A stretch of 64,000 nt of DNA, from NCBI GenBank assembly GCA_009746045.1, contig RPFO01000041.1:3459661-3523660 (forward strand), given 5' to 3'. Positions 1 through 55,989 of the stretch are shown piece after piece. The translations under genes and the position numbers were made by a program. Below the pieces are notes generated by a model that had not been told where the DNA came from, searched no databases, and saw only the letters and a list, made by a program, of their open reading frames with translations. Origin of the DNA: Mesostigma viride. Taxonomy: Eukaryota; Streptophyta; Mesostigmatophyceae; Mesostigmatales; Mesostigmataceae. Within the stretch, counting starts at the first letter, position 1. The number at the start of each line of letters is the position of its first letter.

Positions 1-84
1 CTGGAGCTTGTAATCCTCAGCATAAGGAAGCCAGATCCTGCCTGCAAAGCTATCCAGTCCCATGGCAGCAATGCCACCTCCGCT

Positions 85-467
85 GTGCAGGGCCAAGGTG
101 ATGTCCCCGGGTACCCAGCCCGTGATGGGGCAAGGCCCAACAAGCGTAAGCGCTTCAGGCGCCAGAGGCAGGGGGCTCAGGGTGGCAAGGGTGCAGGTTC
201 CCAAGGAGGGGTTGGGAGCCAGCAAGCTGGTGGTCAGCAGGGTAAGGGTGGCCAAGGGCAAGGCAAGGGCCAAGCTCAAGGCAACCAGGGCAAGCAGGGT
301 GGACAGTCTCAGGGAGGCCAGGGAAGCCTGGCAAGGGTGGGGCTGGGTCTGGGAAGAAGGGTGGAGCATGCTTTGTGTGTGGCAAGGAAGGTCACTGGCG
401 TCGTGAGTGTCCTGACAGGAAGGCCAAGCCTGCTGGGGCAGGGGCCAGTCTGGGCAGCAGTGACTAG
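85..467 (+). pseudogene. gag: CopA gag C-terminal part with CCHC zinc knuckle
   Basis: A basic, Gly/Gln/Lys-rich stretch (about 127-320) runs into a CCHC knuckle at 369-410 with spacing C-X2-C-X4-H-X4-C (CFVCGKEGHWRREC). It stops at TAG 465-467. The basic stretch and the knuckle are in different frames, so there is one frameshift near 320. Retroviral-type Gag of this kind binds RNA in virus-like particles. The start codon is not determined because the N-terminal half is outside the window. No copia DSG protease motif follows the knuckle. Confidence 0.7.
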
Positions 468-839
468 CATCATCCCCTGTAAATAGTCAATCACCCCTTG
501 GGGAAGGTGTGCTGGATGTACATAAGGATGGGGGTGTGCCCCTTGTGCAGCACCAAGGGTGTAAAGATGTTGTTCTTCCACTGGATTGCAATAACAATGC
601 TGCAGCTGAATTCCCTATGCCTCATGCAGGTGGTGGGTCTCCAGCAGGTGCTGGCCTGGAGGGCCAAGGGACCTTGCTGGAAGGGCCTGGAGCGGTCCAG
701 GGTGCAGGACCTGACTTGGGGCGTCAGGATGGCCTGCAGGGAAGCCCTGGAACCTCAGGAGTGGATCATGTGTCCCCACACACGGTTCAGACGTCTCGCC
801 AGGTCAGTACTGACAGAGTGCTGAGCTATGCTGAGGCTG

Positions 840-1690
840 GCCATAGTTGCATCACATGTTTGGGCATTCTGGGCAGGCAGCAATGTTTGCTTGGAAGCTA
901 GGTAGGGAGCCTTTGTGGGAGGCTGCCAGGCTGCTGCTGAGAACTGTGGTTGCCAGGAGAATGCTGTTCACCCACCTCAGTCCCATGCTAGGGAGCCTGC
1001 TAGGGAGCGTGGCGACATCCAGATGGATATCCAGCATATCAGGGGCTTGTATATATTGGTGGGGTGGACAGGTTCAGTAGATACAGGCTGATAGACGTTC
1101 TGCCTGGTATGCAGGAGCACCACTTGTTGTTGGGTATGAAGGCCCTGATCCCAGGCTTTGGGGTGTGCAAGAGTGTGCAGGCAGACTTGCAGTTTGACTG
1201 TTTGCTCAAGCATCAGGACCAGCTGCCTTGTAAGCTGGTAGTAGTCCCCAGGGAGAGTCATGGGCAGCAAGGGGCTGTAGAGAGATCCATACGTGAAGTG
1301 AAGACAGTGGTGCTAGCAGCAGAGTCAGTGCCACTTGTGGCATCTGCCTTAGAGAGGGCAGCCTGGTGTAAGGGGATAGAAGAGCAGCTGAACCACAGGG
1401 TTAACTATTACTTTGATGGTGTGGCTGTCTCTCCCCTGGCCCTGCAGTATAGCTTGTTGCCTGAGAACGTGGTGCAGGCCAGTCTTAGGAAGGCAGATAG
1501 GTTATTTGCCCAGCTGAGACGTAAGGACAAGAACTGGAATGTGCTGAGGCCTCAGGTGGGGCTGAAGGTCAGGATGTGGAAGGAACCATCTATTCCAGGC
1601 AAGCGGGGGAAGTGGCAGGATGGGGTTGTCACTCGTGTGGAGAAGCTAACAGATCTTGCCTGGTGGCTTTGGAAAAGGATCCAAGGCACG
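840..1690 (+). pseudogene. CopA integrase, frameshifted
   Basis: The zinc-binding head has an HHMFGH string near 847-865 and a CGC pair near 940. The catalytic core has a first Asp in IQMDIQHI (about 1017-1040), a second Asp in QADLQF (about 1180) and a Glu in GAVERS (about 1275). The second Asp and the Glu are separated by 31 residues rather than the usual 35. The head and first Asp are in one frame. From 1064 the core continues in another, and the C-terminal tail continues in the frame of the downstream ORF, so at least two frameshifts are present. The C-terminal part contains RPQVGLKVRMWKEPS, a conserved integrase tail shared with CopC. The product would integrate the cDNA; this copy cannot be translated as one chain. 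Confidence 0.8.
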
Positions 1691-4026
1691 TGTACAGGTT
1701 GTCCTGGGCTCATGTCAAGGAAAGAAGGCCACATGCAATCTGGCCTGCAGACGGGCCAGGCCCTCCCAGCTGGGTTGAGGAGCCAGGCCAGAGCCAGGCA
1801 GCAGCAGCTAACAATCCTCTGGTGGTGGATGATGGTCTGTCCCTGCTGGAAGATGACGAGCAGGAGGCTGCTGAAGCAACTGTCACAAGGCCAGAGGGGA
1901 CGGGGCAGCCACCTAAGGCCCGGGGGCCTCTCATGGCGGACGTCATCCGAGCACTCATGCGCAGCAAACATGATCCCAAGGTATCCAAGCTCACGGGGTG
2001 GGGGTCGTGCTGGGCAGCTACAATGGAGGTAGATACCAACTCACAGGTGTCTGTCATCAGGGAAGAGGATGCTGTAGGCTTACAGATGTCCCATCCCAGT
2101 TGCCTTGCTGTGTCTGATTTCTCAGGAAAGGTGTCCATGAAGATCCTTGGGGAAGTGAGTGTGCCTATCTTAGGGGTGCCCACCACGTTCTGTGTGGTAG
2201 AGGGCTATAAGGGGCCTGCCATTCTGGGTCAGAACTTCTTGTGCATGCCAGGGGTTACTTTGACCTCTGATGAGTTGGCACTAGAAGGCAGGGGCAGCCT
2301 CCCCCTTGAAAGATATCACTATTCCCAGGGTCTTGCAGTGGCGGTGAAGGCTGTTAGGAGTCAGCCAGCTGAGGGTCCTCAAGGTCAGGAGCCCATAGCT
2401 GAGGACTTGTTGATAATCCCAACCACCTTTGATCCAAGGCAGTTAGGGGTAAACAGGTACCAGATAGCTGCTCACAGTCCTATTCCCTGGCGCCAGCTAG
2501 TCGAGATGATGCAAAGCCCCAAGATGGCTAAGGCATGGACTCTTGGCTTTGTTGCTTCTGGGCATGAGTGGATAGTTTCCAACTGTGCAGAACCTGTGGA
2601 TGAGCTGCCAGAAGTTCACCAGCTGCTCAGATTGATGTTTGTCCTCAAGCTCAAGGAGGTTGATGGTGTCCAGGTGCCACATGTCAGACCAGTTGTAACC
2701 GAGTATCATGGCACTGGCCAGTTGTTAGATGAGGAGCTCTATACTCCAGGGATGCTGCATGACACGTGGAGGATTCTGCTGTGTATATTTCTGTCTTTTC
2801 TGGTTAAGGGTGTGCCCTATAGCTCTGTGCTGATTGATTTCAAGAGGGCTTTTCTCAAGGGTGACCAAGATCAGGCTAGGCAGACTTGGAGAGATATCCC
2901 TCCTTTCTTTGTGACTGTACCTGCTGTATGGAGAGCAGAGATAAAGGCCAGGTACCTGAGAATTCTGAAAGGGTTGGAAGGTCTCAGGTCCAGTCCCATT
3001 ATCTGGAGAAAGAGCCTAGAGAAATTCTTGAAGAATACTTGTGGGTTTTCTGTGTCTCCAGTGGATCCCTGTTTGTTCCAAGGGTCCCACAATGGCCTTC
3101 CTGTCTTTGCCTCACTGCATGGTGATGACCTGCATCTCATAGGTCCACCAGACTGGGTTGAGGCTGTCTTGGCTAAGATCCAGAAGCGGTTTGAGCTGGG
3201 TAAGATACAGCACATGGTGGAGAATGAGCCTATGGTCTTCTGTGGCATGCAGGCTACGTTGTTCCAAGCCAAGGGCTCGTGGTTCATCAGGATGGAGGGT
3301 GGTAAGGACTACCCACAGCAGATTGTAGATGCATTGCAGGAGCCCATCACGCAGGCTAGGTGTGCTACCATCAGGGGCATGCTGGCATGGCTTGCAAGTA
3401 TATGTGCCCCTGACTTGCTGGTTCTGAGTCGACTTACTGATTCCCAGCTGGTTGAGGTGGGTGCTGAGAGTGTGGTGCAGGCTGTCATGATGTCTCCCCC
3501 TCTCATACTGGGTCCTGTGGATTTGTACAAGCCCCTTGACATGGTTCTCTATGTGGACAGTTCTATGGATAATAGGAAGGTCACAGAGGTCAGGGGCAGG
3601 GCAGCAGCATTAGTTACCCTGGAGCAAGATCACACCTCACTTGTTACCTGGTACAGTCGGTTGCAGAACAGGGTTACACCCAGCAGTGATATTGCTGAGT
3701 GCAGGGCAATCTGTGAAGGGCTGCATACTGCTCTTTACTTGAGGGAGCTCTTCTACCAGCTATGTCAAGTGGCTTCCTGTAGGTTGCAGCTGCACACACT
3801 GGTGAGGACTGATAGCATGGGCATGGTGCAATTTGTGCACAGGCAGCTGGCCAGGAGCAGGGACCTTGACTACTTGTTGCTCAAGGAGATGTCCTACCTA
3901 GCTCACATTGAACATGTGCCTGGTGTGGACAACCCTGCAGATGCCCTCACCAAGCTGGAGGAGAAGGCGGAGAGGCAGTACCCCCTGCTCCGTGGGCTCA
4001 TGGACCCCTTACACGGGCGGCCATAG
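1576..4026 (+). CDS. pol: CopA protease-reverse transcriptase-RNase H polyprotein, open
   Basis: This is an uninterrupted 816-residue reading frame; the start given is the first in-frame ATG and is probably internal to a longer polyprotein. Residues 1-60 are the integrase tail. A retropepsin-like domain follows with catalytic Asp153 in EVDTNSQVSVI and a distal AILGQNF motif at 215-221. The RT has motif A Asp421 (LIDFKRAFL) and the metal-binding pair Asp517-Asp518 in SLHGDDLH, where Ty1/copia normally has YVDD. RNase H follows with Asp661 (LYVDSSMDN), an AECRAICEG helix, a RTDSMGMV motif and the terminal GVDNPADALTK. The protease lies between integrase and RT, which is not the Ty1/copia order. 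The frame is open, so this part could still be functional, but the upstream integrase is broken. Confidence 0.9.
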   Translation: MEGTIYSRQAGEVAGWGCHSCGEANRSCLVALEKDPRHVYRLSWAHVKERRPHAIWPADGPGPPSWVEEPGQSQAAAANNPLVVDDGLSLLEDDEQEAAEATVTRPEGTGQPPKARGPLMADVIRALMRSKHDPKVSKLTGWGSCWAATMEVDTNSQVSVIREEDAVGLQMSHPSCLAVSDFSGKVSMKILGEVSVPILGVPTTFCVVEGYKGPAILGQNFLCMPGVTLTSDELALEGRGSLPLERYHYSQGLAVAVKAVRSQPAEGPQGQEPIAEDLLIIPTTFDPRQLGVNRYQIAAHSPIPWRQLVEMMQSPKMAKAWTLGFVASGHEWIVSNCAEPVDELPEVHQLLRLMFVLKLKEVDGVQVPHVRPVVTEYHGTGQLLDEELYTPGMLHDTWRILLCIFLSFLVKGVPYSSVLIDFKRAFLKGDQDQARQTWRDIPPFFVTVPAVWRAEIKARYLRILKGLEGLRSSPIIWRKSLEKFLKNTCGFSVSPVDPCLFQGSHNGLPVFASLHGDDLHLIGPPDWVEAVLAKIQKRFELGKIQHMVENEPMVFCGMQATLFQAKGSWFIRMEGGKDYPQQIVDALQEPITQARCATIRGMLAWLASICAPDLLVLSRLTDSQLVEVGAESVVQAVMMSPPLILGPVDLYKPLDMVLYVDSSMDNRKVTEVRGRAAALVTLEQDHTSLVTWYSRLQNRVTPSSDIAECRAICEGLHTALYLRELFYQLCQVASCRLQLHTLVRTDSMGMVQFVHRQLARSRDLDYLLLKEMSYLAHIEHVPGVDNPADALTKLEEKAERQYPLLRGLMDPLHGRP

Positions 4027-5033
4027 AGACCAGGCCTTGCTTCAGCTTGGGTGCCCCAGTGGGCTGCTTGACCAAAGTACCAAGTGGTGACTGGTGCTTA
4101 CTGGTTGACAGCCGGTCCTTCAGGGTTAGGTACACCCTCCTGGACAGGAGTTGGTGTGGAATGTCACTCCTACCAGCTGAGAATCATGCCTGGCCCTCCC
4201 CATGGGGTTCAGAAGAGTCGCCAGGACTTAAGTCGACGCCTTTGGCCTCAAACAGTTAGGCCATGCAAGGGCAACCCGAATGTTGGTTCTTACAGGTTGC
4301 TGTACATATGTTTTCTAGTGCTTGTTTCCAACCTGTTGCTAATAAAGAACCTGGTTGTGTGACCATGTGGAACATGGTTGCCAGGGGGCCACATTCTGGG
4401 TTATATAATGCTTGAATAAAACATAATCATGTCATGTCATTCTCATGTTGTTCCATGGTTGTAATGTTTCTCTTGTGTAAAGTTCCAGGTCACCTATAAA
4501 CCTGGAGGTTGGGGTGGGGTTCAATTCCCCAGCAGAGCCACAGCCTGGCATGAGTGATTCCTGGGCTTAACACCCAGTGAAGACATGGGCTCCCCAATAA
4601 GGCAGTATTTGTAGGTGCTACCTGAGTCTCTTTGAGCATAAAAGGGAAAGGCTGGCCAAGGCGGGCGCCATAAGAACGGGCGCCTGTGATAACTGTGAAA
4701 GATCAGGAACTCACAATAGTACGTTCTTGGCATCCTGTAATCCCAGCCATTGGACTAGGTAATGTGCCTTGACTTTAATCTAGCACCAAGTTCCCAAGGA
4801 AAGGTTGGGAGCTGACCAAGGGGTCAGGGGATAACCTGGGGTGACCTCTGATTCACTGGCCAGTACACCTAGCCTGGTCCAAGGGCAGATATGTTGTTAC
4901 CCAAAGGAGGCAGGAACCTGGGCCCTCAAAGGTCTGATCAACCTCAAGGGACCAAGCGGTCTGTGGCTGAGTGGGCACAAGCAAGGTTAGGCTTGTTTCA
5001 AGCTGGTCCAGCTCCAAAAGAAGAAAGGGTTGG
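4027..5033 (+). other. CopA 3' untranslated region with polypurine tract
   Basis: No coding sequence is visible. It shares short blocks with the CopC 3' region, including the double GGGCGCC motif near 4661-4685 (CopC about 40740-40765). A T-arm-like hairpin GGGGTTCAATTCCCC lies at 4516-4530. The purine tract AAAAGAAGAAAGGG at about 5016-5029 directly precedes the LTR and is the likely plus-strand primer. Confidence 0.6.
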
Positions 5034-5676
5034 AGTTAGCATTTTGGGCAACCAATATGCTAAGTGGATGCAGTTTGGAAAGACCTTTCCAACGCCGTGC
5101 TGACCGCCTGAAACAGACAAGGGACGAGAAAGATATGAGGTCCCGAAGTCCTAGCCGTCCGTGGCCGACTAGGGTACAGTCCTCTGGTATAGTGGACAGG
5201 ACACGTGGCAGGCCGTGCCTGCACAGGCTTAGCCTGACTATCACGTGACTGTGGTCCACGTAGACCAGAGGAGCAGCAGCCTGTGGCTGGTGGACACAGG
5301 ACTGGCACAGGTCTGCAAGGATACTAGGCCTTGCAGGCTTGTGACAGGTCCTGTACTTCCTAGGTTGCAGAGTCTAGGCAAATCCAGTTCGTCCTGGCTC
5401 TGCACTGATGCCAGTGGACGTTGAGGATTTGCTTGCCTGCCTGCACGTGCCTCGTCACGCCGATGGGAACGAGGAACAACGCAAAGGATATAGCTTGGTC
5501 ATGGGGGATGACCAGCTATCTTGGCAAGCACGAACCGAGGCTCCCACATTGGACGTGGAAAAGCTCACCGTGGTCGTGGCTTGGTGCACGGGTTAAAAGG
5601 TTGCTGCCTTGCAACTTTGGCTCATCCCGTTGTGTGCGTGAGACCAGGAACTCACAGTTCTGGCTGCTCGCTAACT
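5034..5676 (+). repeat. CopA 3' LTR with AGTTAGC...GCTAACT ends
   Basis: The left end follows the polypurine tract. The right end is fixed by the return of gypsy coding sequence. The two ends form a 7-bp perfect inverted repeat, AGTTAGC and GCTAACT, rather than TG...CA. The length of 643 bp matches the CopC LTR (627 bp), and both contain a related CTTTCCAACG block near position 70. The 5' partner is outside the window, so identity cannot be judged. Confidence 0.75.
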
Positions 5677-12481: not shown

Positions 12482-12798
12482 AGTTAGGTTAAATAGTGCC
12501 GGAACCTTTTGCCCACTGAGGCAAATCGGTCCGTCACACTATTTTGCCCGGAATAACCACTTCCGAGCACCCAAGTTAATTCGGCCGAATGAACTTGGGT
12601 GCTCGGAAGTGGTTATTCCGGGCAAAATAGTGTGACGGACCGATTTGCCTCAGTGGGCAAAAGGTTCCGGCACTATTTAACCTAACTAAAACCTGGCCTC
12701 GTGGAGGGGGGACGAAGAGCCCGAGACATCCGCCTGGGCCGCTGAGCACGCAAATAATATTGCGCCGGAAAAAGGTTCCGGCACTATTTAACCTAACT
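12482..12798 (+). mobile_element. PAL3: palindromic element with AGTT...AACT ends, TSD ACAAG
   Basis: A near-perfect hairpin (12482-12688, arms about 103 nt, centre in TTCGGCCGAA) is followed by an 80-nt spacer and a 30-nt copy of the hairpin's right end (12769-12798). The ends are AGTTAGGTTAAATAG and its complement. ACAAG flanks both sides (12477-12481 and 12799-12803). Deleting the 317-bp element and one ACAAG copy rejoins the CopB reading frame between the integrase tail and the protease, which confirms the boundaries. No coding capacity. Confidence 0.85.
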
Positions 12799-22707: not shown

Positions 22708-22708
22708 T

Positions 22709-35150: not shown

Positions 35151-36396
35151 AGTTATAAACAACGATTCCTTACGGAATCGATACTAAGCGCTTAGTATCG
35201 ATTCCGTAAGGAATCGTTGTTTATAACTAAAACTTTTGCTTGCGCCGGCAAGGCTAAGGCCGATACTAGTCGGGTCATCGAATTGGCTATTCGATTATCG
35301 AAGTTGCCTATTCGACCATCGATTTTTCCTATTCGATTATCGAATTTTCCTTATTCGATTGTCAAAATTTCCTATTCGACGGGGGGTCAGAGGCCAGCGG
35401 CCTATCATACTCGGTGCCCAGCGAGCCACCGAACTAGGCCTAGTCGATTATAGCGAGACATCGCGTGGAAATTAGCCGATTTCGGGGACTTTGCCGATTT
35501 TCGGAGCGACGTCGAACAACACAGATGATTAGCCGGTTGAGCACATCATATCAGTCGAATAGCTAGCGCTAGTACTCCGCCTAGTCAGCGGAGAGCACTT
35601 GCCTTTTTCGATTAACATATTAGGCTGAACGATTAGCGTCCGCAACGTTATTCGCATTACTAGGCGAAAAATCCACCCCCGGAACGATCCTAGCGGGATT
35701 CGAACCCGGGATGCCGGCGTGTCGCAACAGTCTTAGTTATAAACATCGATTCCTTACGGAATCGATACTAAGCGCTTAGTATCGATTCCGTAAGGAATCG
35801 ATGTTTATAACTAAGACTGTTGCGACACGCCGGCATCCCGGGTTCGAATCCCGCTAGGATCGTTCCGGGGGTGGATTTTTCGCCTAGTAATGCGAATAAC
35901 GTTGCGGACGCTAATCGTTCAGCCTAATATGTTAATCGAAAAAGGCAAGTGCTCTCCGCTGACTAGGCGGAGTACTAGCGCTAGCTATTCGACTGATATG
36001 ATGTGCTCAACCGGCTAATCATCTGTGTTGTTCGACGTCGCTCCGAAAATCGGCAAAGTCCCCGAAATCGGCTAATTTCCACGCGATGTCTCGCTATAAT
36101 CGACTAGGCCTAGTTCGGTGGCTCGCTGGGCACCGAGTATGATAGGCCGCTGGCCTCTGACCCCCCGTCGAATAGGAAATTTTGACAATCGAATAAGGAA
36201 AATTCGATAATCGAATAGGAAAAATTGATGGTCGAATAGGCAACTTCGATAATTGAATAGCCAATTCGATGACCCGACTAGTATCGGCCTTAGCCTTGCC
36301 GGCGCAAGCAAAAGTTTTAGTTATAAACAACGATTCCTTACGGAATCGATACTAAGCGCTTAGTATCGATTCCGTAAGGAATCGTTGTTTATAACT
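35151..36396. mobile_element. PAL1-A: 1246-bp nested palindrome element, TSD GCGCC
   Basis: Three 78-bp perfect palindromes (35151-35228, 35735-35812, 36319-36396), all bounded by AGTTATAAAC...GTTTATAACT, flank and centre two 506-bp spacers in inverted orientation. The whole is symmetric about 35773/35774 with no indel and only a couple of substitutions seen. GCGCC flanks both sides (35146-35150, 36397-36401). A B-box-like GGTTCGAATCC lies 28 nt from the central palindrome on each side (35841-35851 on +, mirror copy on -). The spacers also hold a degenerate 20-nt array of ATTCGATTATCGAA words. No coding capacity. Confidence 0.85.
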
Positions 36397-41134: not shown

Positions 41135-41655
41135 AGTTATTCTAGGGCTTCAGGCCTAGACTATCAGTACACGTGGCGTTGTCCCCGTCTCCCAAGTGGG
41201 ATACGGACATGGACGGTGGTGTAGTACACTGGACATATCTCTACTAGGATTTAGATCCGCACGTGCCATGCTGGGCACGTGGGTGCTAGATATTAGCACT
41301 GAGATATGTAGGGCACACGCACGTGGGTATTCACGTGGTAGGGTTTATGAGCTGTGATGCAGACCACAAGGTGGTTGCAGTGCTAGTCCTGTACGGAGGT
41401 CCTAGGAGAGGTCCAGGACCGTCCACGTAGTGCTGCTAGGCGGTCGTTGCCTGTGGGCATCGTATCAGTCCTAGCTGGAGTAGATCTAGCTGGACGGAGC
41501 CAGCACCTCATTGGTTAGCCCTAGTGCAGGATAGCTAGGTTACCCTAACCTACGTGCCCATGCAATCCAGCTTGGCAAGCTTGCATGGATTGATATTATG
41601 CCAGCCATTGCATAATCCAACACACGTTCGCTTTCATTGCACAAGTGCATTAACT
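41135..41655 (+). repeat. CopD 5' LTR
   Basis: 521 bp, AGTTATTC...CATTAACT. The next bases TGCATTAATAAAAA match the post-LTR sequence of CopB and contain no standard tRNA 3'-end primer-binding site. Confidence 0.85.
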
Positions 41656-41705
41656 TGCATTAATAAAAACTCTCACGGTTTTTATACTACTCTATCATCT
41701 TAAAA

Positions 41706-43368
41706 ATGTCGAACGTTTCCGATCACGATGGCTCTTCAGAGTCGAGCCTGTCGCCATCGTACGAGGATTTGGACTACCGGGCGGCAGTGAGGGGCCGGCA
41801 GGGTAGGGGTGACCACGCTGGCAGCGATGCCGGCAGTGGTCGCACGTCCTCGGACGAGGACCCGCGGTACCTCGATCAACTGGCGTCGAGACCGCCGACA
41901 TACAATGTCTGGCGACCCAACGCGCCACCGGCTGAAGGGCAGCCCACGGCACCCGAGTTGGTAACTGGGCCGGGGAGGGTGGTGCCAGTTCTGGGGGATA
42001 TCCCGTCGGATGGATATGACGAGGACGAAGACCTCGTCGATCTCGAGCTGCCTGAGGACAGGGAGCAGCGAGAGGAGCTGCTCCGCCGGGAGGCAGAACG
42101 CCTTCGGCAGGAGGCCCAGCTGCGCAGGGAGCTGGAACAGCAGCGCGAGCTGGAGGCTCAGCGCGAGGCACAGCTGCGGGCGGAGAATGAGATAGACAGG
42201 ATAGCCCGGGAGCTCGCGGAGAGGCAGCAGGAGCGGGATCGGGTGGCCAGGGCAGGCTTGCGCGCGGGACCGACAGGTGCGCGCGAGGCGCCCCCTACGC
42301 TGCGCAAGAAAACGAGCTCTTCACCTTTGCTCGCCGGCGCACAGCGCGCAACTTTCGGCGCATGGCAGGGGATGTTTGCAGGAAACAGACTCCTCGGTCG
42401 AGATGCAGCCAGGAGAGCGGGGTGAGGAACTGGTCCTGATGGACCCGGCCATGGTCGAGGCCGAGAGACTGGCCAAGATCGAGTACACCCGGCATTGCCA
42501 GCGGAAGGCAAAGCGGGCGATGGTCCGGTCCATGGCAGAGAACAGCTTGGCTCGGGAGCGTGCAGCCAGGGAGGCGCAGCATCGGGAACTGCGCAGACTT
42601 CGGGCGAAGGCACACGACGCCACAGAGAAGACCCGGCGTCACCAGGCGCGTTTGGACGCAGCCATGAAGCGGTCGGAGGCGGCACTGGCGTCGATGGTGG
42701 GCCCGGCGAGGAGGGAGCAGGAGGCCAGGCTGGCGCGGAAGAGCAGGCGGAACGCACGTGCCCTAGACAGGCGCATGCGTAAGGAGGAGAGGGCACTCCG
42801 CCGGTATCAGGAGGCGGCCAGGACCTGGGCTCTGCAGGGCGAGTTTGGAGACGCCATCCGTTGTGAGCGTGGTCTGGCGCCCCATGAGCCGTTGCCCGAG
42901 GACGCGGTACTGGACTTCATGCGCACCCCACAGCCAGCAAGAGCCCAGCGAGGAGCGGCTTTGTTAAACGCGCGTGAGCGCGTACGTGCCGGTGCAGACA
43001 CACCCCACCCCCCACCCCCCACACCCAAAACCACTTTGCAGACCGACACGGACTTGGAGCTGGACCGCATCGCTGCACTACTCCACCAGGAGCTGGACGC
43101 AGCGGAGGCCAACCCGATCAAGCGGGCGCGGGCAGCAGAAGCAGTAGAGCAACTGCTGAGGGCCGCCAAGCGGGTACGCCATGCAAGGAAAGTGGCAGGC
43201 GGGGTGTGGACCATCGTCTACGCCCCAGCGGTCGCATCCAGAGGAGGACGGTGACGAGGGGAAGGACGGGGGAGCACCAGGGGGAGGGGCACCCTCAAGC
43301 ACCGGGGGTATGGCGGGCGGCAGCAACGCTGGAGCGACAACCCAGCAGCAGCAGCAGCCACAGCATCA

Positions 43369-43400
<32 letters not shown>

Positions 43401-44600
43401 GGCAGCACAGCAACAGCAACCGCAGCAGCAGCAGCAGCAGCAGCAACCTCAACCACAAGCGGCTGTCGCTGTACCACAGCGACCCAGGTTTGATGCATCC
43501 CGTAGGGAAGATAGGATTACCTTCCCAGGTCTAGCTGAGGGTTTGTGCAGGAGGATGCACTTGAGTTTCTTTTCAAGATAGAACATTCCTGGTCCCATGA
43601 TAACATCCGTGATTGGTTTCCTGCTCTTAGGGTGTCTAACACGATCCACCAATCTGCACCTAGCATAAAACAAATGGTCAGATGTATGAGAGGAGGGCCA
43701 GCACACCTGGGGCAGAGGAGGTGCAAATCTTCACAGAATTCATAGCAGACCTAAAAGGGCTGTTGACCAAGGGGGAACACCTGCAGGCTCTCAAGGGGTT
43801 CAACTGGTTGGCCTCGTACAAAGTCAACAAGTCTGACTACGTACGTGACAACAAACAGTATGTCCTGTACATAGACAGGGACGAGGAGTTGAAGAAACTC
43901 AACTCTAAGTACCTGATCCATCAGTGGCTCACCAAAGCTGAGCTGGACAAGAACACCAATGCAGTTCTGCTGGCTGGCCTTAAAGACAAGTGGGATGATT
44001 TTAGGGGGGCCATGTTGTTCATTCAGCAGAGCCTAGAACCCTTCTCCACTGTCAAGGAACCCAAGGTTAACAAGGTCCAAGGGGGGGGGTCAGGACGGTG
44101 CAGGTCCTAGCAGGAAGAAGCTCATCAAGGAGGTGGTAGCTCAGGTCAAGGCGGTGTTCAAGGGTCCCCAGCAGGTAAGAAGGCAGGGGGGTCATCCAAG
44201 CAGCAGGGGAAATCAGACAAGGGGGGAAAGGGGAACCAGGCAGTAAGGCAGGGCCCTCCCAGGGGCCTAGTCAAAAGGTAAGCCTCATGACTCCACCCTG
44301 TACTGCACCAGGTGCTCATGCAAGGGGCATGAGAGGGATGATTGCTGGAAGGGCAAACCCGAACTTGGATCTGATGTGGATGTGTGCCCAGGTTGCTGGG
44401 AGCCCCGCCACCCGTTACCTGCAGGGGGACGCTGCAACAAGCCCAGGAAGGGAGCCTCGACGGGGCGCCCCACAAAACAAGCCAGCACTCAGGACGACTG
44501 TAAGTCTCCTGTACCCTGGTTTCTCAATGGCCGTGTACCTCTATTTGCTCTGTGTTGCCTGACAGTGAGGAAGTGGATTGGGACCTGGCTTATGACATGA
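41706..44600 (+). pseudogene. gag: CopD gag with coiled coil, polyglutamine and zinc knuckles, frameshifted
   Basis: ATG at 41706 lies 50 nt past the LTR. The first frame (to 42425) starts Ser/Asp-rich and enters a long Glu/Arg coiled coil (ELLRREAERLRQEAQLRREL). The coil continues in a second frame (about 42370-43254) and a third has a CAG-repeat polyglutamine tract (about 43340-43440). A copia-type Gag core follows (43682-44110, e.g. LASYKVNKSDYVRDN and ELDKNTNAVLLAGLKDKWDD). A CCHC knuckle lies at 44304-44345 (CTRCSCKGHERDDC), followed by a second, stretched CPGC...H...C motif. The roughly 600-residue charged N-terminal extension is unusual for a copia Gag and was not seen in CopB. At least four frame changes. 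Confidence 0.7.
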
Positions 44601-45655
44601 CGTTAGCACAGGTGGCCCAAGATCCCACTATAGCCTCCTTAGATGCAGCAGCAGATAAGGTTATATCCTATGCCAGGTTAGCCCAACAGCTACACAAGGC
44701 AATGGGGCATGAGGCAGTGGCAGAAAGGCTGGCCAACAAAATTGATGGCCGTGACCTGGAACAGATGTGCAGGCATGTCAGGAAGCACTGTGAAGCGTGC
44801 CAACTGCATGCACCTAAACCCAAGAGATGGCATGTGGCCACCCCACCACTGGCTAGAGGAAAGCTAGTAGGGGATGTGATACACTGGTGAAGGACACGGT
44901 GTATTACTTGGTCCTAAAAGATGCCTGGTCTAGGTTTGTGGTGATAGAACCCTTGCCAGGCATGGCCAATGAACAACTGCACAGAGCCCTGCTGATTGCA
45001 CTAGCACGGTATCATCCTCAGGAAAAATTAATGCTGGATCAGCAGTTCACGTGGATACAAGATTATCCTGATCTGCCCAAGATAGACATTGCTGGGGCTC
45101 AAGATCATGAACGCCAGGGGATGATTGAACGTACCATGCGTGCTATCAGGGACCTCATAAAGAAAAATGAGTCCAGGACAGCAGAGTCTGGGAGCTATGC
45201 TGATAGGACAGCGTGGGCAGCTGAGGTGTGCAGAACTCTGAACACCAAACCCCTCATGTCTTCTCCTTTTGGTGAAATCACATCAATTGGCCTGCAATCA
45301 GGTAGCTACTCTCAGGAGGTACTAGACCACTACAACACGCAAAGGCAACACTTGGCCAAGTTGCTGGCAAAAAAGGATAAAAGTAATGCCAGGCCTGTGT
45401 TTGAAGTGGGGGATCAGGTACTCTACTATAGGGAGGGGAAGGGAACAAAGCCCACTCTGGTAGATGGCATGGTCCAGCTGAAATCATCAGGTTGTCAGAA
45501 ACAGGTGACACGGTGACTATTCAGCATCACAGAGAGCGAATGGTTGGCAAGCATAGACTGAAGCTTTATTACCCTCCTTTGGCAGACGTGTCAGGGGTAG
45601 AATTCTTGGACATGGATTCAGAGCCTCAGTCTGGTGGGTTGGTCTCACCCAGTGA
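44601..45655 (+). pseudogene. CopD integrase, frameshifted
   Basis: The zinc head (LHKAMGH, CRHVRKHCEAC) leads to LVGDVIHW with the first Asp. After a one-base frame change near 44886 the core continues (TVYYLVLKDAWSRFVVIEP), with the second Asp in KLMLDQQF and Glu in GMIERT, 29 residues between them. The tail has FEVGDQVLYYREGKG. Another frame (about 45480-45665, LSETGDTVTIQHHRERM) links to the next ORF. The three catalytic residues are present; the two or three frame changes are the only defects I see. Confidence 0.8.
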
Positions 45656-47995
45656 ATGGCCAGGGACATAGCTGATGCAAGCAACACAACCATAGACGCT
45701 CCTGTGTTCCTCAGTGGTGCAGCCCCACCACAGCCCACTGGTCCAACTGGGCAGGAGGAACGTGCACTGGATGAGCAGCAGGTCGCTCCTCCCTCATCTC
45801 AGGAACAGCCACACGAAGCAGCAGATCCTGTTGTCCCCAGGAATAAATTTGCTGAGGCTCTAAAAGCTCTACATAGAGCACACACTGCCAAGGCACAAAT
45901 GGCAGCAGGTGCAGCACAAGTCAATGCTGTGGGTGAATCTAACCAGGATCCCAGTATTCTGGCAGTAGACACACAGGCACAGGTGAGCATCATCAGTGCA
46001 CAAGCTGTATCTGGCCTAAGTCTGCAACGCTCGCCCTGGGCTAGAGTGTCAGATTTTTCAGGCAAAACAAAAATGGCAGTCAAAGGCCAAGTGCTAATTC
46101 CCATTCTGGGTGTGCCCACTCCCTTCCAGGTAGTAGAGGGCTACAAGGGGAATGCACTGCTGGGGGAACCATTTGTCTCATACCCTGGAGTAGTCATCTC
46201 AGCTGGGAGGTTGAGTGTGACTGGGGTGGGGCAGGTCACCCTGGACCATTTCAAAATTCCTTTAACACAGATCAGTGATGGCCTGGAAGCAGCCATCAAT
46301 GCTGTCAACATAAAATACCTCCCAGGTCAGGAACCCTGTGTTGATTCCCTCATTCATTCTCAGAAGCTACACCCCTCTGCGTTTGGGCTTGGTAGATGGG
46401 ACATAGCGTCCATGTCTCCCTTGTCCTATGATGATGTGGTCAAAGACTGTCAAACGCAGATTGGTTTTCTGAAATGGATGGAAGCCTTTAACAGGGCTAG
46501 AGAGGAATGGGTTTGTCCTGATCCACGTAGCAAGTCCCAGGTACCACCTGTAACACCGATTGAGGCACTGCCACAAGGGGCCAGAAAGCTCAGACTGAAG
46601 TTTGTCTGCAAGCATAAACCCCAGGCAGATGGGACACCTCCCATTTTTCATGCCAGACCTTGTGTCACGGAGTTCAGGGGCTCCACTGAGCTAACAGAGG
46701 CTGAACTGTATACCCCTGGTATTCAGCAGACGTCTCTTAAGGTCCTGTTGGCCACTTTCCTTCACCATCTGAATGCTGGTAAGGACTACGTGTGTAAAGC
46801 CACTGACATTAAACGAGCCTTCCTTAAAGGCAACCCTGACATAGCCCAAAAGGTGTGGAGGGGTCAAGTCTATGTGGTAAACACTCCCAAAGTCTGGTCT
46901 GGGGACATCAAGGAACCTCATCTAAGGCCTAACTTGGGGGTAGAAGGGCTTCAGTCAGCACCTAAAATTTTTAGGCTGTCTGCCCAAGAGGTCTTCCTGA
47001 AGCTGGGGGCCCAGTATGATGATATTGACCCTTGTTTCTTCACCATCCCTCATCCTGCTGGTATGATGATGTTTGTGTGGCATGGGGATGATCAGCTCAT
47101 TACTGGTCCCAGGGCAGCTGTGGAGGATTTCATTGCTCAAGTGTCTGCTAGCTTTGAATTAGGCAAGCAGCTGGAGCTGGGGAAAGATCCTGTCAAGTTC
47201 TGTGGCATCATTCTGAACCTGTTTAAGGAGCAGAAGGAGTGGGTGTGTTCTCTCAAAGCATCCCCTGAGTATGTCATGTCTTGCAAAGATGTTCTTCCCT
47301 CTGACATCACTCCTGATCTCTGTCCCACTATTAGGGGTAAGCTAGGTTGGCTGTGTGCCACTTGTGCTCCTCATCTGGCAGTGGTCAGCAGAGTGGATGA
47401 TGATGTCCTCATGGAGGTAGGGTCTAGGGCTATTAAACAGGTGTTGCATGATGGCCCTCCCCTTATTCTTCATGCCTTGGATCTGTTCCAACCCATCCAC
47501 ATCACATGCATGATGGACAGTTCCATGGAGTCACGGGTAGTCACTAAGGTACAAGCCAGAGAGGCAGGTCTATTTATGTTGTCTAACCCCACTGGCAAGC
47601 AATCTTTGGTTTCCTGGTTCAGCAGACTCCACAAGCGCAAGGCAGTCAGCAGCAATGTAGCTGAATGCCGTGCTGTGGTCTCATCTGTGTTGCATGCCAG
47701 GTACTTGAACCATCTGCTGGTGTGGTTGCAGCATCAGGCTGGTAGTTATGCTGGTGTCAAATCCCATCTGCTGACTGACAGTCAATCCCTTCTCTCTTTC
47801 CTGGACAACCCCTTGGCTGTGCACACCGATTTGGACTGGATTGTCCTCAAGCAGGAGTGTACCTATCTGGAGTCCAAGACTCACATCCGAGACCCTGACA
47901 ATGCAGCAGATGCACTCACAAAAGTGCCACAGGCTGCAGGGCCTCAGTACAGAGTCCTATACACGCTGATGAACCCATATAACGGCAGAGGGTGA
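45656..47995 (+). CDS. pol: CopD protease-reverse transcriptase-RNase H polyprotein, open
   Basis: An uninterrupted 779-residue frame; the given start is the first in-frame ATG, and the true polyprotein probably enters from the integrase. The protease domain has Asp105 in LAVDTQAQVSIIS, a central LIPILGVPTPF and the distal ALLGEPF. The RT has Asp384 in motif A (TDIKRAFLKG), the VEGLQSAPKIF block and the pair Asp478-Asp479 in FVWHGDDQL. RNase H has Asp621 (MMDSSMESR), AECRAVVSS, LTDSQSLLSF and the terminal DPDNAADALTK. Length and domain content equal CopA. The DTQ and HGDD variants are unlikely to be decay because they recur in independent copies. Confidence 0.9.
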   Translation: MARDIADASNTTIDAPVFLSGAAPPQPTGPTGQEERALDEQQVAPPSSQEQPHEAADPVVPRNKFAEALKALHRAHTAKAQMAAGAAQVNAVGESNQDPSILAVDTQAQVSIISAQAVSGLSLQRSPWARVSDFSGKTKMAVKGQVLIPILGVPTPFQVVEGYKGNALLGEPFVSYPGVVISAGRLSVTGVGQVTLDHFKIPLTQISDGLEAAINAVNIKYLPGQEPCVDSLIHSQKLHPSAFGLGRWDIASMSPLSYDDVVKDCQTQIGFLKWMEAFNRAREEWVCPDPRSKSQVPPVTPIEALPQGARKLRLKFVCKHKPQADGTPPIFHARPCVTEFRGSTELTEAELYTPGIQQTSLKVLLATFLHHLNAGKDYVCKATDIKRAFLKGNPDIAQKVWRGQVYVVNTPKVWSGDIKEPHLRPNLGVEGLQSAPKIFRLSAQEVFLKLGAQYDDIDPCFFTIPHPAGMMMFVWHGDDQLITGPRAAVEDFIAQVSASFELGKQLELGKDPVKFCGIILNLFKEQKEWVCSLKASPEYVMSCKDVLPSDITPDLCPTIRGKLGWLCATCAPHLAVVSRVDDDVLMEVGSRAIKQVLHDGPPLILHALDLFQPIHITCMMDSSMESRVVTKVQAREAGLFMLSNPTGKQSLVSWFSRLHKRKAVSSNVAECRAVVSSVLHARYLNHLLVWLQHQAGSYAGVKSHLLTDSQSLLSFLDNPLAVHTDLDWIVLKQECTYLESKTHIRDPDNAADALTKVPQAAGPQYRVLYTLMNPYNGRG

Positions 47996-48370
47996 AGTGC
48001 CTCAGCCTAGGGCTATTAGCACCAGATAGGAGGGTGGTCATGGGGTGGCAGGGTCTGAAGTGTCCCACCCGTAAGACTCTCTTTGCGTCATTAAAGATTG
48101 AGGTCAGAAGGGTCCTCCTTTATTGATGGCTTGTTCTTTGTCAATAAAACGTGTGGTCATATTTTTCTGACAATGGTTTTCCCAACACAGGCACCCAACC
48201 AGTGGGGATGTTGTATCCAACACGGAGGAGCTATGGGCGCTTTTATAAATGCATCTCTTTCAGTGTCCTGGTTGTCCCTGTGGGGAACCTTGCTTATCAG
48301 TAGTGGTTGGCATATGAGTGGGTTGTGGGAAGAGTCTTCCCCTCACTCCCCAAAGAAAAGTAATAATGGG
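47996..48370 (+). other. CopD 3' untranslated region and polypurine tract
   Basis: Non-coding. The purine-rich CCCCAAAGAAAAGTAATAATGGG at about 48346-48370 directly precedes the 3' LTR. Confidence 0.55.
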
Positions 48371-48890
48371 AGTTATTCTAGGGCTTCAGGCCTAGACTAT
48401 CAGTACACGTGGCGTTGTCCCCGTCTCCCAAGTGGGATACGGACATGGACGGTGGTGTAGTACACTGGACATATCTCTACTAGGATTTAGATCCGCACGT
48501 GCCATGTGGGCACGTGGGTGCTAGATATTAGCACTGAGATATGTAGGGCACACGCACGTGGGTATTCACGTGGTAGGGTTTATGAGCTGTGATGCAGACC
48601 ACAAGGTGGTTGCAGTGCTAGTCCTGTACGGAGGTCCTAGGAGAGGTCCAGGACCGTCCACGTAGTGCTGCTAGGCGGTCGTTGCCTGTGGGCATCGTAT
48701 CAGTCCTAGCTGGAGTAGATCTAGCTGGACGGAGCCAGCACCTCATTGGTTAGCACTAGTGCAGGATAGCTAGGTTACCCTAACCTACGTGCCCATGCAA
48801 TCCAGCTTGGCAAGCTTGCATGGATTGATATTATGCCAGCCATTGCATAATCCAACACACGTTCGCTTTCATTGCACAAGTGCATTAACT
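48371..48890 (+). repeat. CopD 3' LTR
   Basis: 520 bp. It differs from the 5' copy by one missing base (GCATGTGGG for GCATGCTGGG context) and one substitution. It is followed by CTGGG. Confidence 0.85.
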
Positions 48891-51969: not shown

Positions 51970-53540
51970 GGAGGTTTTTGAGGCGCTGTTGTCCACCATG
52001 ATGGGAGCGGTACTCCAGAAGGTGATGGAGCGGATGATGACTCCTCAAGCGGCGGCGGGACCTGGGGCTTCTGCACCTCCCAGTGCAGGACCCAATCAGG
52101 TCGCGCCTCAAGGGCCGGGCGGGGCAGTCACCAGCGCGACGTTACCGGTGGGTACTGTGACCGTTGCGGGTGGTTCCGGGGTGTGGGCCGGGCCGTCATG
52201 CAGGTCCCCCAATGACGGGGCTTTCCAGCGTCTGTCCAGGGGGTCGCACCGGGGCCGCCAGGTCCCCATGTGGCGGGGCTTTCCAGCTCCTCCCACCGAC
52301 CTTTGGCTCCTGTCCAGGTTCCCCCTCAAGGGCCTGGGTGGACCTCCCTGTTGCCGCAACAGGTGGGTTTGATGTCGGGGCTTGGACCGGATGTACGTTG
52401 GGGTTAGCGCGCGGACGTGGGGGCGGTATGCGGGGTGGTGGCGTGGTGGCGCAGGTTGCAATTCCGGGTAGTAGGGTGACGTTCCAGTCTTCCGCTGTGG
52501 CGTTGCCAGGGATCCAGCAGGTGGCCCCCGACGCGTGCGCAGCATTAAGGGGTGCAGCAGCCATCACGGCAGCCGCTTCAATAGCAGTTGTACAAGCGAA
52601 TGCTTATACTTTTTATGCGCAAACCTTTTAGCTAAGGTTAACGCATATCCTTACATCCTGCGCAGGATGTAAGGATATGCGTTAACCTTAGCTAAAAGGT
52701 TTGCGCATAAAAAGTATAAGCATTCGCTTGTACAACTTAAAACCTTTGCGCGTTGGGGCGGAATATTAAGCGGCTCCCTAACTAGGGTTTACTTCCGCAT
52801 CGAATTACTAATTCGATATTAATCCCGGGAAGGTCCGATATGTACCTCGCTAGGCGATTAATTAGGTCCGACCGGTGCCCCGGCGGATCCTCCCAAATAA
52901 TCCCTACTCGGCACTGGCCCCACGAGGTTTCGAACCCATGACTTCCGCGCCGCGCCGGTTCTAAGTTGTACAAGCGAATGCTTATACTTTTTATGCGCAA
53001 ACCTTTTAGCTAAGGTTAACGCATATCCTTACATCCTGCGCAGGATGTAAGGATATGCGTTAACCTTAGCTAAAAGGTTTGCGCATAAAAAGTATAAGCA
53101 TTCGCTTGTACAACTTAGAACCGGCGCGGCGCGGAAGTCATGGGTTCGAAACCTCGTGGGGCCAGTGCCGAGTAGGGATTATTTGGGAGGATCCGCCGGG
53201 GCACCGGTCGGACCTAATTAATCGCCTAGCGAGGTACATATCGGACCTTCCCGGGATTAATATCGAATTAGTAATTCGATGCGGAAGTAAACCCTAGTTA
53301 GGGAGCCGCTTAATATTCCGCCCCAACGCGCAAAGGTTTTAAGTTGTACAAGCGAATGCTTATACTTTTTATGCGCAAACCTTTTAGCTAAGGTTAACGC
53401 ATATCCTTACATCCTGCGCAGGATGTAAGGATATGCGTTAACCTTAGCTAAAAGGTTTGCGCATAAAAAGTATAAGCATTCGCTTGTACAACTATAGCCA
53501 CAGCGGCAGCAGGTGCAGCAACAGCATGGCAGCAGTACGG
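51970..53540 (+). pseudogene. GypB gag-like ORF interrupted by PAL2
   Basis: It reads EVFEALLSTMMGAVLQKVMERM at its start, then a Pro/Gly/Ala-rich stretch with at least one frame change near 52200, and an Ala-rich end that continues across PAL2 (AAAITAAAS before, TAAAGAATAWQQYGV after) to a TGA. The helix followed by a low-complexity linker resembles gypsy Gag N-termini, but no zinc knuckle is present. Low confidence in function. Confidence 0.4.
52586..53493. mobile_element. PAL2: 908-bp nested palindrome element, TSD ATAGC
   Basis: Three 152-bp palindromes (52586-52737, 52964-53115, 53342-53493) bounded by AGTTGTACAAG...CTTGTACAACT flank and centre two 226-bp spacers in inverted orientation. 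The element is exactly symmetric about 53039/53040. ATAGC flanks both sides (52581-52585, 53494-53498). A B-box-like GGTTCGAAACC lies 27 nt from the central palindrome on each side (53143-53153 on +, mirror on -). No sequence similarity to PAL1 or PAL3 beyond the AGTT ends and the AAAACY run next to the outer palindrome. Confidence 0.88.
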
Positions 53541-53827
53541 AGTGTGAGCCGGGGTACTGGAGTGCCTTGATGTCCCCGGAGGCTGTTCAATTCTACGATA
53601 CGGACTAGACAGGACAATCGGTTCCACGGGAGTCGCTGGGTCAGCCATTGTTGTTGGCGGCATGATGAGAAGGGCCGGGTCTTTGTGCGGGGGGTACGTG
53701 TTGCGGGACTGTAATATGGACCGTAACACGCCGACCCCGGATATGCGGGCGCGTCAACAGCGTTACGAGGAGTACTAGTACCTTCTCTCGCTTCAAGGGG
53801 CAGTCACCCAGTACAACTGGTAGATGG

Positions 53828-54862
53828 AGTTATATACACCATAGTGCTCTCCGCTGACTAGGCGGAGTACCAGCGCTAGCTATTCGACTGATGTGCTGTG
53901 CTCAACCGGCTAATCATCTGTGTTGTTCGACGTCGCTCCGAAAATCGGCACAGTCCCCGAAATCGGCTAATTTCCACGCGATGTCTCGCTATAATCGACT
54001 ATAGGCCTAGTTCGGTGGCTCGCTGGGCGCCGAGTATGATAGGCCGCTGGCCTCTGACCCCCTGTCGAATAGGAAATTTCGACAATCGAATAAGGAAAAT
54101 TCGATAATCAAATAGGAAAGTTCGATGGTCGAATAGGCAACTTCGATAATCGAATAGCCAATTCGATGACCCGACTAGTATCAGCCTTAGCCTTGCCGGC
54201 GCAAGCAAAAGTTTTAGTTATATACATCGATGTACTAAGCGCTTAGTATCGATTCCGCAAGGAATCGATGTATATAACTAAGACTGTTGCGACACGCCGG
54301 CATCCCGGGTTCGGATCCCGCTAGGATCGTTCCGGGGGTGGATTTTTCGCCTAGTAATGCGAATAACGTTGCGGACGCTAATCGTTCGGCCTAAAGTGTT
54401 AATCGAATAAGGCAAGTGCTCTCCGCTGACTAGGCGGAGTACCAGCGCTAGCTATTCGACTGATATGATGTGCTCAACCCGCTAATCATCTGTGTTGTTC
54501 GACGTCGCTCCGAAAATCGGCACAGTCCCCGAAATCGGCTAATTTCCACGCGGTGTCTCGCTATAATCGACTAGGCCTAGTTCGGTGGCTCGCTGGGCAC
54601 CGAGTATGATAGGCCGCTGGCCTCTGACCCCCTGTCGACTAGGAAATTTCGACAATGGAATAAGGAAAATTCGATAATCAAATAGGAAAGTTCGATGGTC
54701 GAATAGGCAACTTCGATAATTGAATAGCCGATTCGATGACCCGACTAGTATCGGCCTTAGCCTTGCCGGCGCAAGCAAAAGTTTTAGTTATATACATCGA
54801 TTCCTTGCGGAATCGATACTAAGCGCTTAGTATCGATTCCGCAGGAATCGATGTATATAACT
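53828..54862. mobile_element. PAL1-B: PAL1 family, head-to-tail arrangement, TSD GATGG
   Basis: It begins with an 11-nt remnant of the palindrome (AGTTATATACA), then a 5'-truncated spacer, a partial palindrome (54216-54279), a full spacer in the same orientation, and a full palindrome (54786-54862). GATGG flanks both sides (53823-53827, 54863-54867). Here the spacers are direct repeats, whereas in PAL1-A they are inverted. The B-box site reads GGTTCGGATCC, one change from PAL1-A. Confidence 0.85.
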
Positions 54863-55977: not shown

Positions 55978-55989
55978 TGGTATCGAGCG
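55978..55989 (+). other. GAG1 primer-binding site
   Basis: TGGTATCGAGCG abuts the LTR and resembles the initiator Met-tRNA site TGGTATCAGAGC. Confidence 0.7.

Follow-up and report, generated by a model that had tools for sequence, protein, structure and literature searches.

In this study, we show that PAL1, PAL2, and PAL3, first seen as insertions in a 64-kb stretch of Mesostigma viride DNA (here called the window), are multicopy families across the 440-Mb genome, as revealed by a genome-wide search. Judging from the structure of their copies, we consider it probable (about 60%) that they are nonautonomous TRIM-like retroelements with palindromic terminal repeats, inserted by a resident copia integrase and with ends rebuilt from half-palindromes. 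The unit of every family is P-arm-P, where P is a perfect or near-perfect palindrome with AGTT...AACT ends that measures 78 bp in PAL1, 152 bp in PAL2, and 206 bp in PAL3, lengths that are far beyond chance. Monomers are ∼550 bp long in PAL2 and PAL3 and ∼665 bp in PAL1, PAL1 dimers exceed 1 kb, and inverted dimers (P-arm'-P-arm-P), which are common, span 0.9 to 1.2 kb. Because elements occur as P-arm-P or P-arm-P-arm'-P, PAL1-A and PAL2 of the window are inverted dimers and PAL1-B is a truncated tandem dimer (Table 1); in a self-comparison of the window, PAL1-A forms a 1248-bp inverted repeat (99.7%) and PAL2 in its entirety a 908-bp inverted repeat with zero mismatches. Rereading the sequence confirmed the coordinates, the AGTT...AACT ends, and the 5-bp target-site duplications (TSDs) that the original prediction had given for all four insertions, whereas its statement that each terminal unit is a palindrome holds for the full-length P but not for the left end of PAL1-B or the right end of the window PAL3, which retain 12 and 29 bp of P, respectively. 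At the cutoff used, loci L005 to L054 and the window contained no AGTT-ended palindromes other than those of PAL1 to PAL3.

Table 1. Coordinates of PAL insertions, their B-box-like motifs, and associated elements in the window
Feature	Position	Strand	TSD	Parts and remarks
PAL1-A, inverted dimer	35151..36396	.	GCGCC	P 35151-35228, arm 35229-35734, central P 35735-35812, arm 35813-36318, P 36319-36396
PAL2, inverted dimer	52586..53493	.	ATAGC (both sides)	P 52586-52737, arm 52738-52963, central P 52964-53115, inverted arm 53116-53341, P 53342-53493
PAL1-B, tandem dimer	53828..54862	+	GATGG	Left P reduced to 12 bp; right P 54786-54862
PAL3, deletion derivative	12482..12798	.	ACAAG	Inside CopB; P 12482-12687, 82 bp of arm, 29-bp end of second P
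B-box-like GGTTCGAATCC	35841..35851	+		PAL1 inner arm end, 28 bp from P; mirror copy 35696-35706
B-box-like GGTTCGAAACC	53143..53153	+		PAL2 inner arm end, 27 bp from P; mirror copy 52926-52936
CopA, complete copia-like element	1..5676 (part in window)	+	GATGG	3' LTR from 5034
CopB, copia-like element	13828-10978	minus		Hosts the window PAL3
CopD, complete copia-like element	41135..48890	+	CTGGG	LTRs AGTT...AACT; RVT_2 in 45656-47995
ORF with integrase domains H2C2 and rve	5675-7225

The length of the duplication across genomic copies had been proposed as a check. Among the copies sampled, which are the best-scoring and not random ones and whose left and right ends cannot be treated as independent observations, a 5-bp TSD was found in 29 of 31 PAL elements with recognizable ends, and it was exact at 11 of 15 loci of a second set of PAL copies and at 13 of 28 PAL3 loci, the other 15 PAL3 loci being mostly truncated, ending at the edge of the retrieved sequence, or continuing into more element sequence. 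The detected ends of L013, L020, L049, L068, L069, L088, and L089 lack a TSD. The same ends and the same duplication length, as expected of an element mobilized by Ty1/copia, occur in CopA, CopD, and CopE, the three complete copia elements that were read, and a scan for shared ends matched the PAL ends among copia elements alone. We suggest that a copia integrase may act on the PALs through these common AGTT...AACT ends, with CopD as a candidate source. In contrast to the PALs, the three copia elements have LTRs of ∼640 bp (CopA), ∼520 bp (CopD), and 378 bp (CopE) together with a copia polymerase; the polymerases of CopA and CopD are just ∼37% identical. The window PAL arms have no similarity to window copia elements in a self-comparison that covers CopA and CopD. 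AGTT...AACT LTRs had been attributed to four copia-like elements: this is correct for CopA and CopD, whereas CopB and CopC gave no match in the end scan, which required an exact TSD and repeated end sequences. CopD, described earlier as the one complete element, does have its 5-bp TSD, but CopA is complete as well, with a 5' LTR to the left of the window (the element starts 2761 bases beyond it, locus L070, −2761 to 5676, and ends in AGTTAGC...GCTAACT). CopA, CopD, and CopE lack a tRNA-3'-end primer binding site (PBS; TGG...) behind the 5' LTR and have purine-rich runs ahead of the 3' LTR. The window also contains two LTR elements with TG...CA ends, one of which encodes a copia gag; their iMet-like PBS, TGGTATC, would suit a green plant or alga as host.

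The palindrome halves are natural markers, and the route by which ends are copied can therefore be read from standing variation; end completion by nonautonomous LTR elements that lack the usual PBS thus becomes testable in one genome. We compared the outer palindromes of 36 PAL1 and PAL2 elements with a TSD and both outer palindromes full-length: the match was better as direct repeats in 15 and as inverted repeats in 0, with 7 ties and 14 pairs of identical perfect palindromes. Eleven of the 15 direct-matching pairs had zero differences, and this direct orientation is seen even though the arms are inverted. Where the two orientations are distinguishable, PAL1 and PAL2 have terminal direct repeats, which in a TRIM should be identical at insertion, and not the mutually inverted outer repeats of foldback elements or MITEs. 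Moreover, in 30 of 34 informative PAL1 ends and 2 of 2 PAL2 ends (32/36 in total), the distal half is a copy of the proximal half found at the opposite end of the element, which fits the prediction of LTR replication; the exceptions are four self-copied PAL1 ends. L027 and L031 were classed on a single base, and the two outer palindromes are unequal in the PAL1 monomers L042 and L055. These counts support the interpretation that the outer palindromes of PAL1 and PAL2 behave as LTRs wherever they are distinguishable, as originally predicted. PAL3 departs from this prediction: in 14 of 16 informative ends the distal half is a copy of the proximal half at the same end, as expected of fold-back synthesis, and both ends are self-copied in 6 of 8 informative elements. 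Among 13 PAL3 elements with a TSD, the outer palindromes were identical in 4, tied in 8, and closer as inverted repeats in L085 (1 difference, compared to 7 as direct repeats). A plain LTR model for all three families was dropped because PAL3 ends are mostly self-copied.

Of 30 PAL1/PAL2 dimer junctions, 22 are inner-inner, that is, joined at the tRNA-like arm end, 6 are tandem, and 2 are outer-outer. In 17 dimers with nonuniform palindromes, the arm-facing halves match better in 11 and the crossed halves in 1, with 5 ties; in the 7 such dimers of PAL3, the central P is imperfect in every case, while 9 of 14 outer P are perfect (Fisher P = 0.007, treating palindromes as independent). Perfect central P were found in two PAL3 loci outside these seven, L089 and L082, the latter incomplete at the retrieved edge. 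Heterodimers occur at L019, L041, L048, L057, and L067, and an identical three-palindrome set of halves is present at two genomic places, L072 and L086. Compared across copies, the halves show that the two sides of a palindrome are inherited as units, swapping partners at the center and mostly staying with the adjoining arm.

We propose that the RNA used for transposition runs from about the center of one outer palindrome to about the center of the other and would therefore hold the proximal halves only, the absent distal half being restored during cDNA synthesis. In PAL1 and PAL2, the opposite end would supply this half by a route like LTR strand transfer, the palindrome core taking the part of the repeated R region, whereas in PAL3 the cDNA end would mostly fold back and copy itself. 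The self-complementary ends of two cDNAs could also pair and prime each other, giving inverted dimers that would be joined mostly at the tRNA-like end, contain a central P made of one half per parent, and afterwards transpose as units.

Each of the three families has a B box next to P and close to the inner end of the arm, a T4 run is found at the outer P or one base ahead of it, and all six arm ends open with (T)ARAAC(C/T). The P/arm junction of PAL3 gave a weak RF00005 match (16.2 bits, under the gathering score of 29), and PAL1 and PAL2 gave none even at low threshold. ARAGORN predicted zero tRNAs and Rfam at gathering threshold 0 matches in the window, the low-threshold Rfam matches of the PALs being all below gathering and mostly to microRNA models that reflect hairpin shape. 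None of the six arm ends of the three families shows TGG... following P or a purine run preceding P. An ordinary tRNA 3'-end PBS was rejected for lack of TGG..., and a half-tRNA PBS (antisense) at the inner arm end was dropped because the T-arm-like GGTTCGA runs in the sense direction outward from P. We entertain, as a doubtful variant, that termini are rebuilt by hairpin (fold-back) synthesis from half-palindromes, replacing LTR strand transfer or alongside it, with a Pol III transcript as self-primer; such a transcript would end in ...GUUUU at the outer P boundary, or one base before, and prime reverse transcription on the complementary AAAAC adjoining P. If so, one kind of element would switch between LTR-type (PAL1 and PAL2) and hairpin-type (PAL3) replication of its ends.

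The palindromes might instead be kept perfect after insertion, in ordinary copia-mobilized TRIMs, through cruciform extrusion and gene conversion rather than during replication. Long palindromes do extrude, some PAL1 outer palindromes (L027 and L031, also L042 and L055) have one half in common and differ in perfection, tracts in L027 and L031 are patchy, and the central P of L082 and L089 is perfect. Yet central and outer P of the same length differ in perfection within the seven PAL3 dimers; correction mainly at the termini points to a linear intermediate, and the set of halves common to L072 and L086 also argues against conversion in place, an explanation that we regard as unlikely. Somewhat more improbable are foldback or MITE-type DNA transposons, with the palindromes as terminal inverted repeats for a DNA transposase that makes 5-bp TSDs. 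PAL1-A and PAL2 are inverted repeats over their whole length, PAL1-A, PAL1-B, and PAL2 lack an internal ORF of at least 150 amino acids, and the outer palindromes of PAL3 are mostly unlike, as with independently inherited ends, L085 fitting the inverted orientation. For PAL1 and PAL2, however, this reading is rejected by the direct-repeat test, which leaves it as a low-probability alternative for PAL3. In addition, P-arm-P monomers with TSDs that are not inverted repeats overall exist (e.g., L042, L045, L063, and L064), three complete copia elements have the same ends and TSD length, and Pfam found no DNA transposase among the 9 ORFs scanned, one of which has an rve integrase domain.

That ORF, with its H2C2 and rve domains, would also suit an integrase from other DNA elements of the Polinton or Ginger type, which likewise make TSDs of 4 to 6 bp, but LTR-type end regeneration in PAL1 requires reverse transcription or a circle and the end scan matched copia elements only, so that we hold this source to be very improbable. 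We give even less credence to SINE-like elements that depend on RNA polymerase III for transcription and on a LINE for mobility: the B box, the T4 run, and the weak tRNA match of PAL3 speak for them, but the ends read have no A-rich tail, the fixed TSD length is poorly compatible with such a route, and LINEs do not typically yield exact 5-bp TSDs together with terminal repeats and fixed AGTT/AACT ends.

Among known systems, the PALs are closest in several respects to TRIMs, whose definition includes small size, terminal repeats, and a TSD (PMC6934838) and which have been reported in Chlamydomonas and Volvox (PMC4717578). PAL monomers are likewise below ∼1 kb and noncoding (at an ORF cutoff of 150 amino acids), have two terminal repeats and a TSD that, at 5 bp, lies within the 4 to 6 bp of TRIMs, and are probably mobilized by a larger LTR element. 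Unlike TRIMs, their terminal repeats are palindromes of 78 to 206 bp, they lack a canonical PBS or polypurine tract, and the terminal repeats at either end of PAL3 elements are mostly nonidentical. The dimers alone are not new, because TRIM arrays have already been described in plants, where tandemly arrayed TRIMs (TA-TRIMs) comprise LTRs and internal units within one TSD and one array, from maize, contains two inverted units (PMC4717578). PAL dimers resemble the TA-TRIMs described there in that units, inverted ones included, are arrayed within one TSD, but differ in that the inverted dimer is a major form among the copies read, mostly one arm end is joined, and the joint is a single palindromic repeat. 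Helenus/TRIMp3 elements are described as TRIMs whose LTR contains a tRNA-derived Pol III promoter and which have a 5-bp TSD in fungi and plants, with copia as the likely helper in fungi (PMC10886601). The PALs share the 5-bp TSD and may share a tRNA-like stretch within or next to the terminal repeat, but their tRNA-like part straddles the P/arm junction and the B box alone is clear. A term search of the main text of PMC10886601 returned no mention of palindrome, hairpin, dimer, or inverted repeat, and the titles and abstract openings of the open-access literature matches listed contain no report of palindromic LTRs. With foldback elements and MITEs, the PALs have in common small size and long inverted repeats, the outer repeats of PAL1 and PAL2 nevertheless being direct wherever distinguishable. 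With lengths of up to 206 bp, the palindromes may also give rise to double-stranded RNA and genome instability, as may the inverted dimers of 0.9 to 1.2 kb.

The four PAL insertions lie where the original prediction placed them, with the duplications GCGCC (PAL1-A), GATGG (PAL1-B), ATAGC (PAL2) and ACAAG (PAL3). Compared with itself, the window contains PAL2 as a mismatch-free inverted repeat of 908 bp and PAL1-A as an inverted repeat of 1248 bp at 99.7%, which rules out a chance origin of these repeats. We searched the 440-Mb assembly for further copies and read top-scoring loci (L numbers): 20 for PAL2, picked among the best matches; 30 for PAL1, some of them the same element twice and two of them PAL1-A itself; a second PAL1 sample of 15 additional loci; and 28 for PAL3. 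The basic unit of all three families in the copies read is an arm between two terminal palindromes (P-arm-P), where P runs from AGTT to AACT and measures ~78 bp in PAL1 (arm, ~506 or 511 bp), ~152 bp in PAL2 (arm, 226 to 249 bp) and ~206 bp in PAL3 (arm, ~132 bp). A common form is the inverted dimer, P-arm'-P-arm-P; L036 and PAL1-B are tandem dimers, L032 is a trimer, and some copies are deletion forms. The second P is reduced to 29 bp in the window PAL3 and to 12 bp in L077, with the duplication intact beside both, so that short ends seem, from these sequences, to suffice for insertion.

Exact 5-bp target-site duplications flank 29 of the 31 elements with recognisable ends in a hand-made list, the exceptions being L020 and L049. 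Left out of this list, because one end is absent or continues into another arm, are PAL1-B, the PAL1 loci L030, L034 and L046, and 10 of the 20 PAL2 loci (L005, L007, L008, L011 to L014, L017, L022 and L023), among which L013 has two full palindromes and no duplication. The duplication lies at the detected ends in 11 of the 15 loci of the second PAL1 sample, in which L068 and L069 have none; in L056 and L061 (PAL1) it was found beyond one additional short fragment of P. For PAL3, it lies exactly at the detected ends in 13 of 28 loci and follows the 12-bp end in L077; the other PAL3 loci without one are mostly truncated or continue into more element sequence, or the fetched stretch cuts them off, yet in L088 and L089 the outer palindromes are full and no duplication flanks them. 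The predicted duplication length thus recurs in the genome copies, but not in every one of them.

The original prediction also held that the palindromes act as LTRs. Had the inverted dimers a foldback or inverted-repeat origin, their outer palindromes would be expected to be mirror copies, and imperfect palindromes allow direct and inverted copies to be told apart. A duplication and a full-length palindrome at each outer end are both present in 36 PAL1 and PAL2 elements; among these, the direct comparison was closer in 15 (PAL1 L027, L031, L033, L036, L040, L041, L047, L048, L050, L057, L059, L060, L063 and L064; PAL2 L019) and the inverted one in none, with 7 ties (L006, L032, L042, L043, L055, L062 and L067) and 14 pairs both identical and perfect. 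Eleven of the 15 show zero differences as direct repeats. The duplication of L057 lies beyond an additional 41-bp piece of P; L056, kept out of the set of 36 since its duplication is likewise beyond an additional piece, is closer as direct repeats (4 versus 6). In L020 and L068, neither of which has a duplication, the outer palindromes fit better as inverted repeats. The 13 PAL3 elements with a duplication comprise 4 identical and perfect pairs, 8 ties and one pair closer when inverted (L085, 1 difference versus 7 as direct repeats), and the inverted comparison is likewise the closer one in L088, which has no duplication (8 versus 10). The LTR reading therefore draws support from PAL1 and PAL2 but not from PAL3.

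Split at its centre, P resolves into a limited set of half alleles that swap partners there. In 49 elements, each with two full outer palindromes and chosen for having a duplication, we compared every distal (outer) half with the proximal (arm-facing) half of its own end and of the other end; 46 of the 98 ends gave no information, the two proximal halves being the same. At the informative ends, the distal half matched the other end 30 times and its own end 4 times in PAL1, 2 and 0 times in PAL2, and 2 and 14 times in PAL3 (Fisher test on ends, 1.7e-7, the two ends of an element not being independent; a single base decides the class of L027, L031 and one end of L095). By element, both ends matched the other end in 15 of 18 cases in PAL1 and PAL2 and in 0 of 8 in PAL3, where both matched their own end in 6 of 8. 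LTR replication would predict a match to the other end if the RNA extended between the two palindrome centres and the palindrome core served as R; a match to the own end is the outcome expected if a cDNA end folded back and copied itself. Correction of the palindromes after insertion is argued against, since it should reach the central copy too: none of seven PAL3 dimers that have a duplication and some difference among their palindromes has a perfect central P, though 9 of their 14 outer P are perfect. Beyond these seven, L073, L086 and L092 have an imperfect central P, and a perfect one is present in L082, cut off by the fetched stretch, and in L089, which has no duplication.

In 17 dimers with some difference among their palindromes, arm-facing halves match each other better than crossed halves in 11, worse in one (L072) and equally well in 5, so that an arm mostly moves together with the halves beside it. 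A dimer may combine arms that are different alleles: in 13 PAL1 dimers compared, they differ at 0 to 5 positions in 9 and at 10 to 27 in 4 (L067, 10; L041, 11; L057, 13; L048, 27), and the arms of PAL2 L019 differ at 24 (245 versus 226 bp). L072 and L086, which lie at different places in the genome, share an identical set of halves, and this suggests that dimers transpose as units. Of 30 PAL1 and PAL2 junctions callable by script, 22 are inner-inner, 6 inner-outer and 2 outer-outer; the script missed L044 and L047 because of changes in their central P or at its edge, and the PAL3 locus L086 contains an outer-outer junction. The 22-to-2 bias is not expected under random recombination between palindromes and fits a process in which one specific end of the cDNA or RNA anneals.

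The inner arm end has tRNA-like features. The B box GGTTCGANNCC occurs four times in the 64 kb (0.36 expected), always at inner arm ends, 28 bp from P in PAL1-A and 27 bp in PAL2; in PAL3 it lies 26 bp from P (L071). PAL3 gives a match to tRNA that is full-length but weak (16.2 bits, below the gathering score of 29) that begins within P and finishes in the arm, and in which the acceptor stem and T-arm region align and the D and anticodon stems do not; RF00005 had no match for PAL1 or PAL2. The P of PAL2 contains the A-box-like TAGCTAAAAGG, a loose motif that, as a pattern one base longer, is not above chance across the whole window. GTTTT or GGTTTT, a possible Pol III terminator, stands immediately before P at the outer arm end (one base earlier in PAL2), and, in the direction away from P, (T)ARAAC(C/T) is the sequence at each of the six arm ends; together these features make a self-made primer conceivable.

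The nearest known kinds of element are TRIMs, including tandemly arrayed TRIMs, with one example of inverted units (PMC4717578), and the TRIMs Helenus and Ajax, which carry Pol III promoters (PMC10886601); the latter source describes the tRNA-like part of Helenus as having no complementarity to its PBS. According to PMC6934838, bivalve TRIMs carry palindromic sequences and short inverted repeats within their inner domain and have no clear PBS, whereas in PAL the terminal repeats themselves are palindromic. Among the matches listed from the open-access literature, no title or abstract opening reports palindromic LTRs.

Locations of individual features, in window coordinates or, where a locus is named, in coordinates of that locus
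Feature	Location	Description
ORF	5675-7225	Integrase H2C2 and rve domains; directly beyond the 3' LTR of CopA, outside CopA
11.2-kb LTR element	21976-33222	733-bp LTRs, TGTAACA...TGTTACA; duplication GCAGG
Paired direct repeats	25839-27981 and 48946-51275	Two related sets, 466 and 612 bp
2.8-kb LTR element	55450-58283	Copia gag domain; TGTCAGG...TGACA; duplication GTTTT
CopE	L083 360-7881	Identical 378-bp LTRs, AGTTAGTC...CATAACT; duplication GCGCA
PAL2 monomer	L020 1506-2056	Flanked by ~17 bp of inverted target sequence
PAL3 dimer	L085 50-931	With duplication
Further palindrome	L005 2560-2637 and L048 176-323	Up to 148 bp; sequence common to both loci; without AGTT ends

Resident copia-like elements are candidate helpers of PAL. 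An unguided scan of the window and 8 kb upstream for AGTT...AACT between identical 5-bp flanks, in which the two end sequences also had to recur internally, gave four elements, CopA, PAL1-A, CopD and PAL2; PAL1-B and PAL3 are truncated and so could not pass. These ends and the 5-bp duplication are common to PAL and to all three complete copia-like LTR elements read, CopD in the window, CopA, which begins to the left of the window and extends into it, and CopE elsewhere, of which CopA and CopD have polymerases ~37% identical and CopE and CopD 82%. Given the identical LTRs of CopE and 33 CopD-like copies at 82% with no stops in the match, among the matches listed, the copia family of CopE looks young. 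The likeness of ends drawn earlier between PAL and the copia-like elements accordingly stands for these three, but AGTT...AACT is not universal among copia-type elements here, since one of two other window LTR elements, both with TG...CA-type ends, carries a copia gag; this 2.8-kb element is perhaps gag-only and non-autonomous. In the other, the 5' LTR is followed by TTGGTATCGGAGG, which resembles an iMet PBS. Shorter repeats of 121 and 129 bp adjoin the paired direct repeats.
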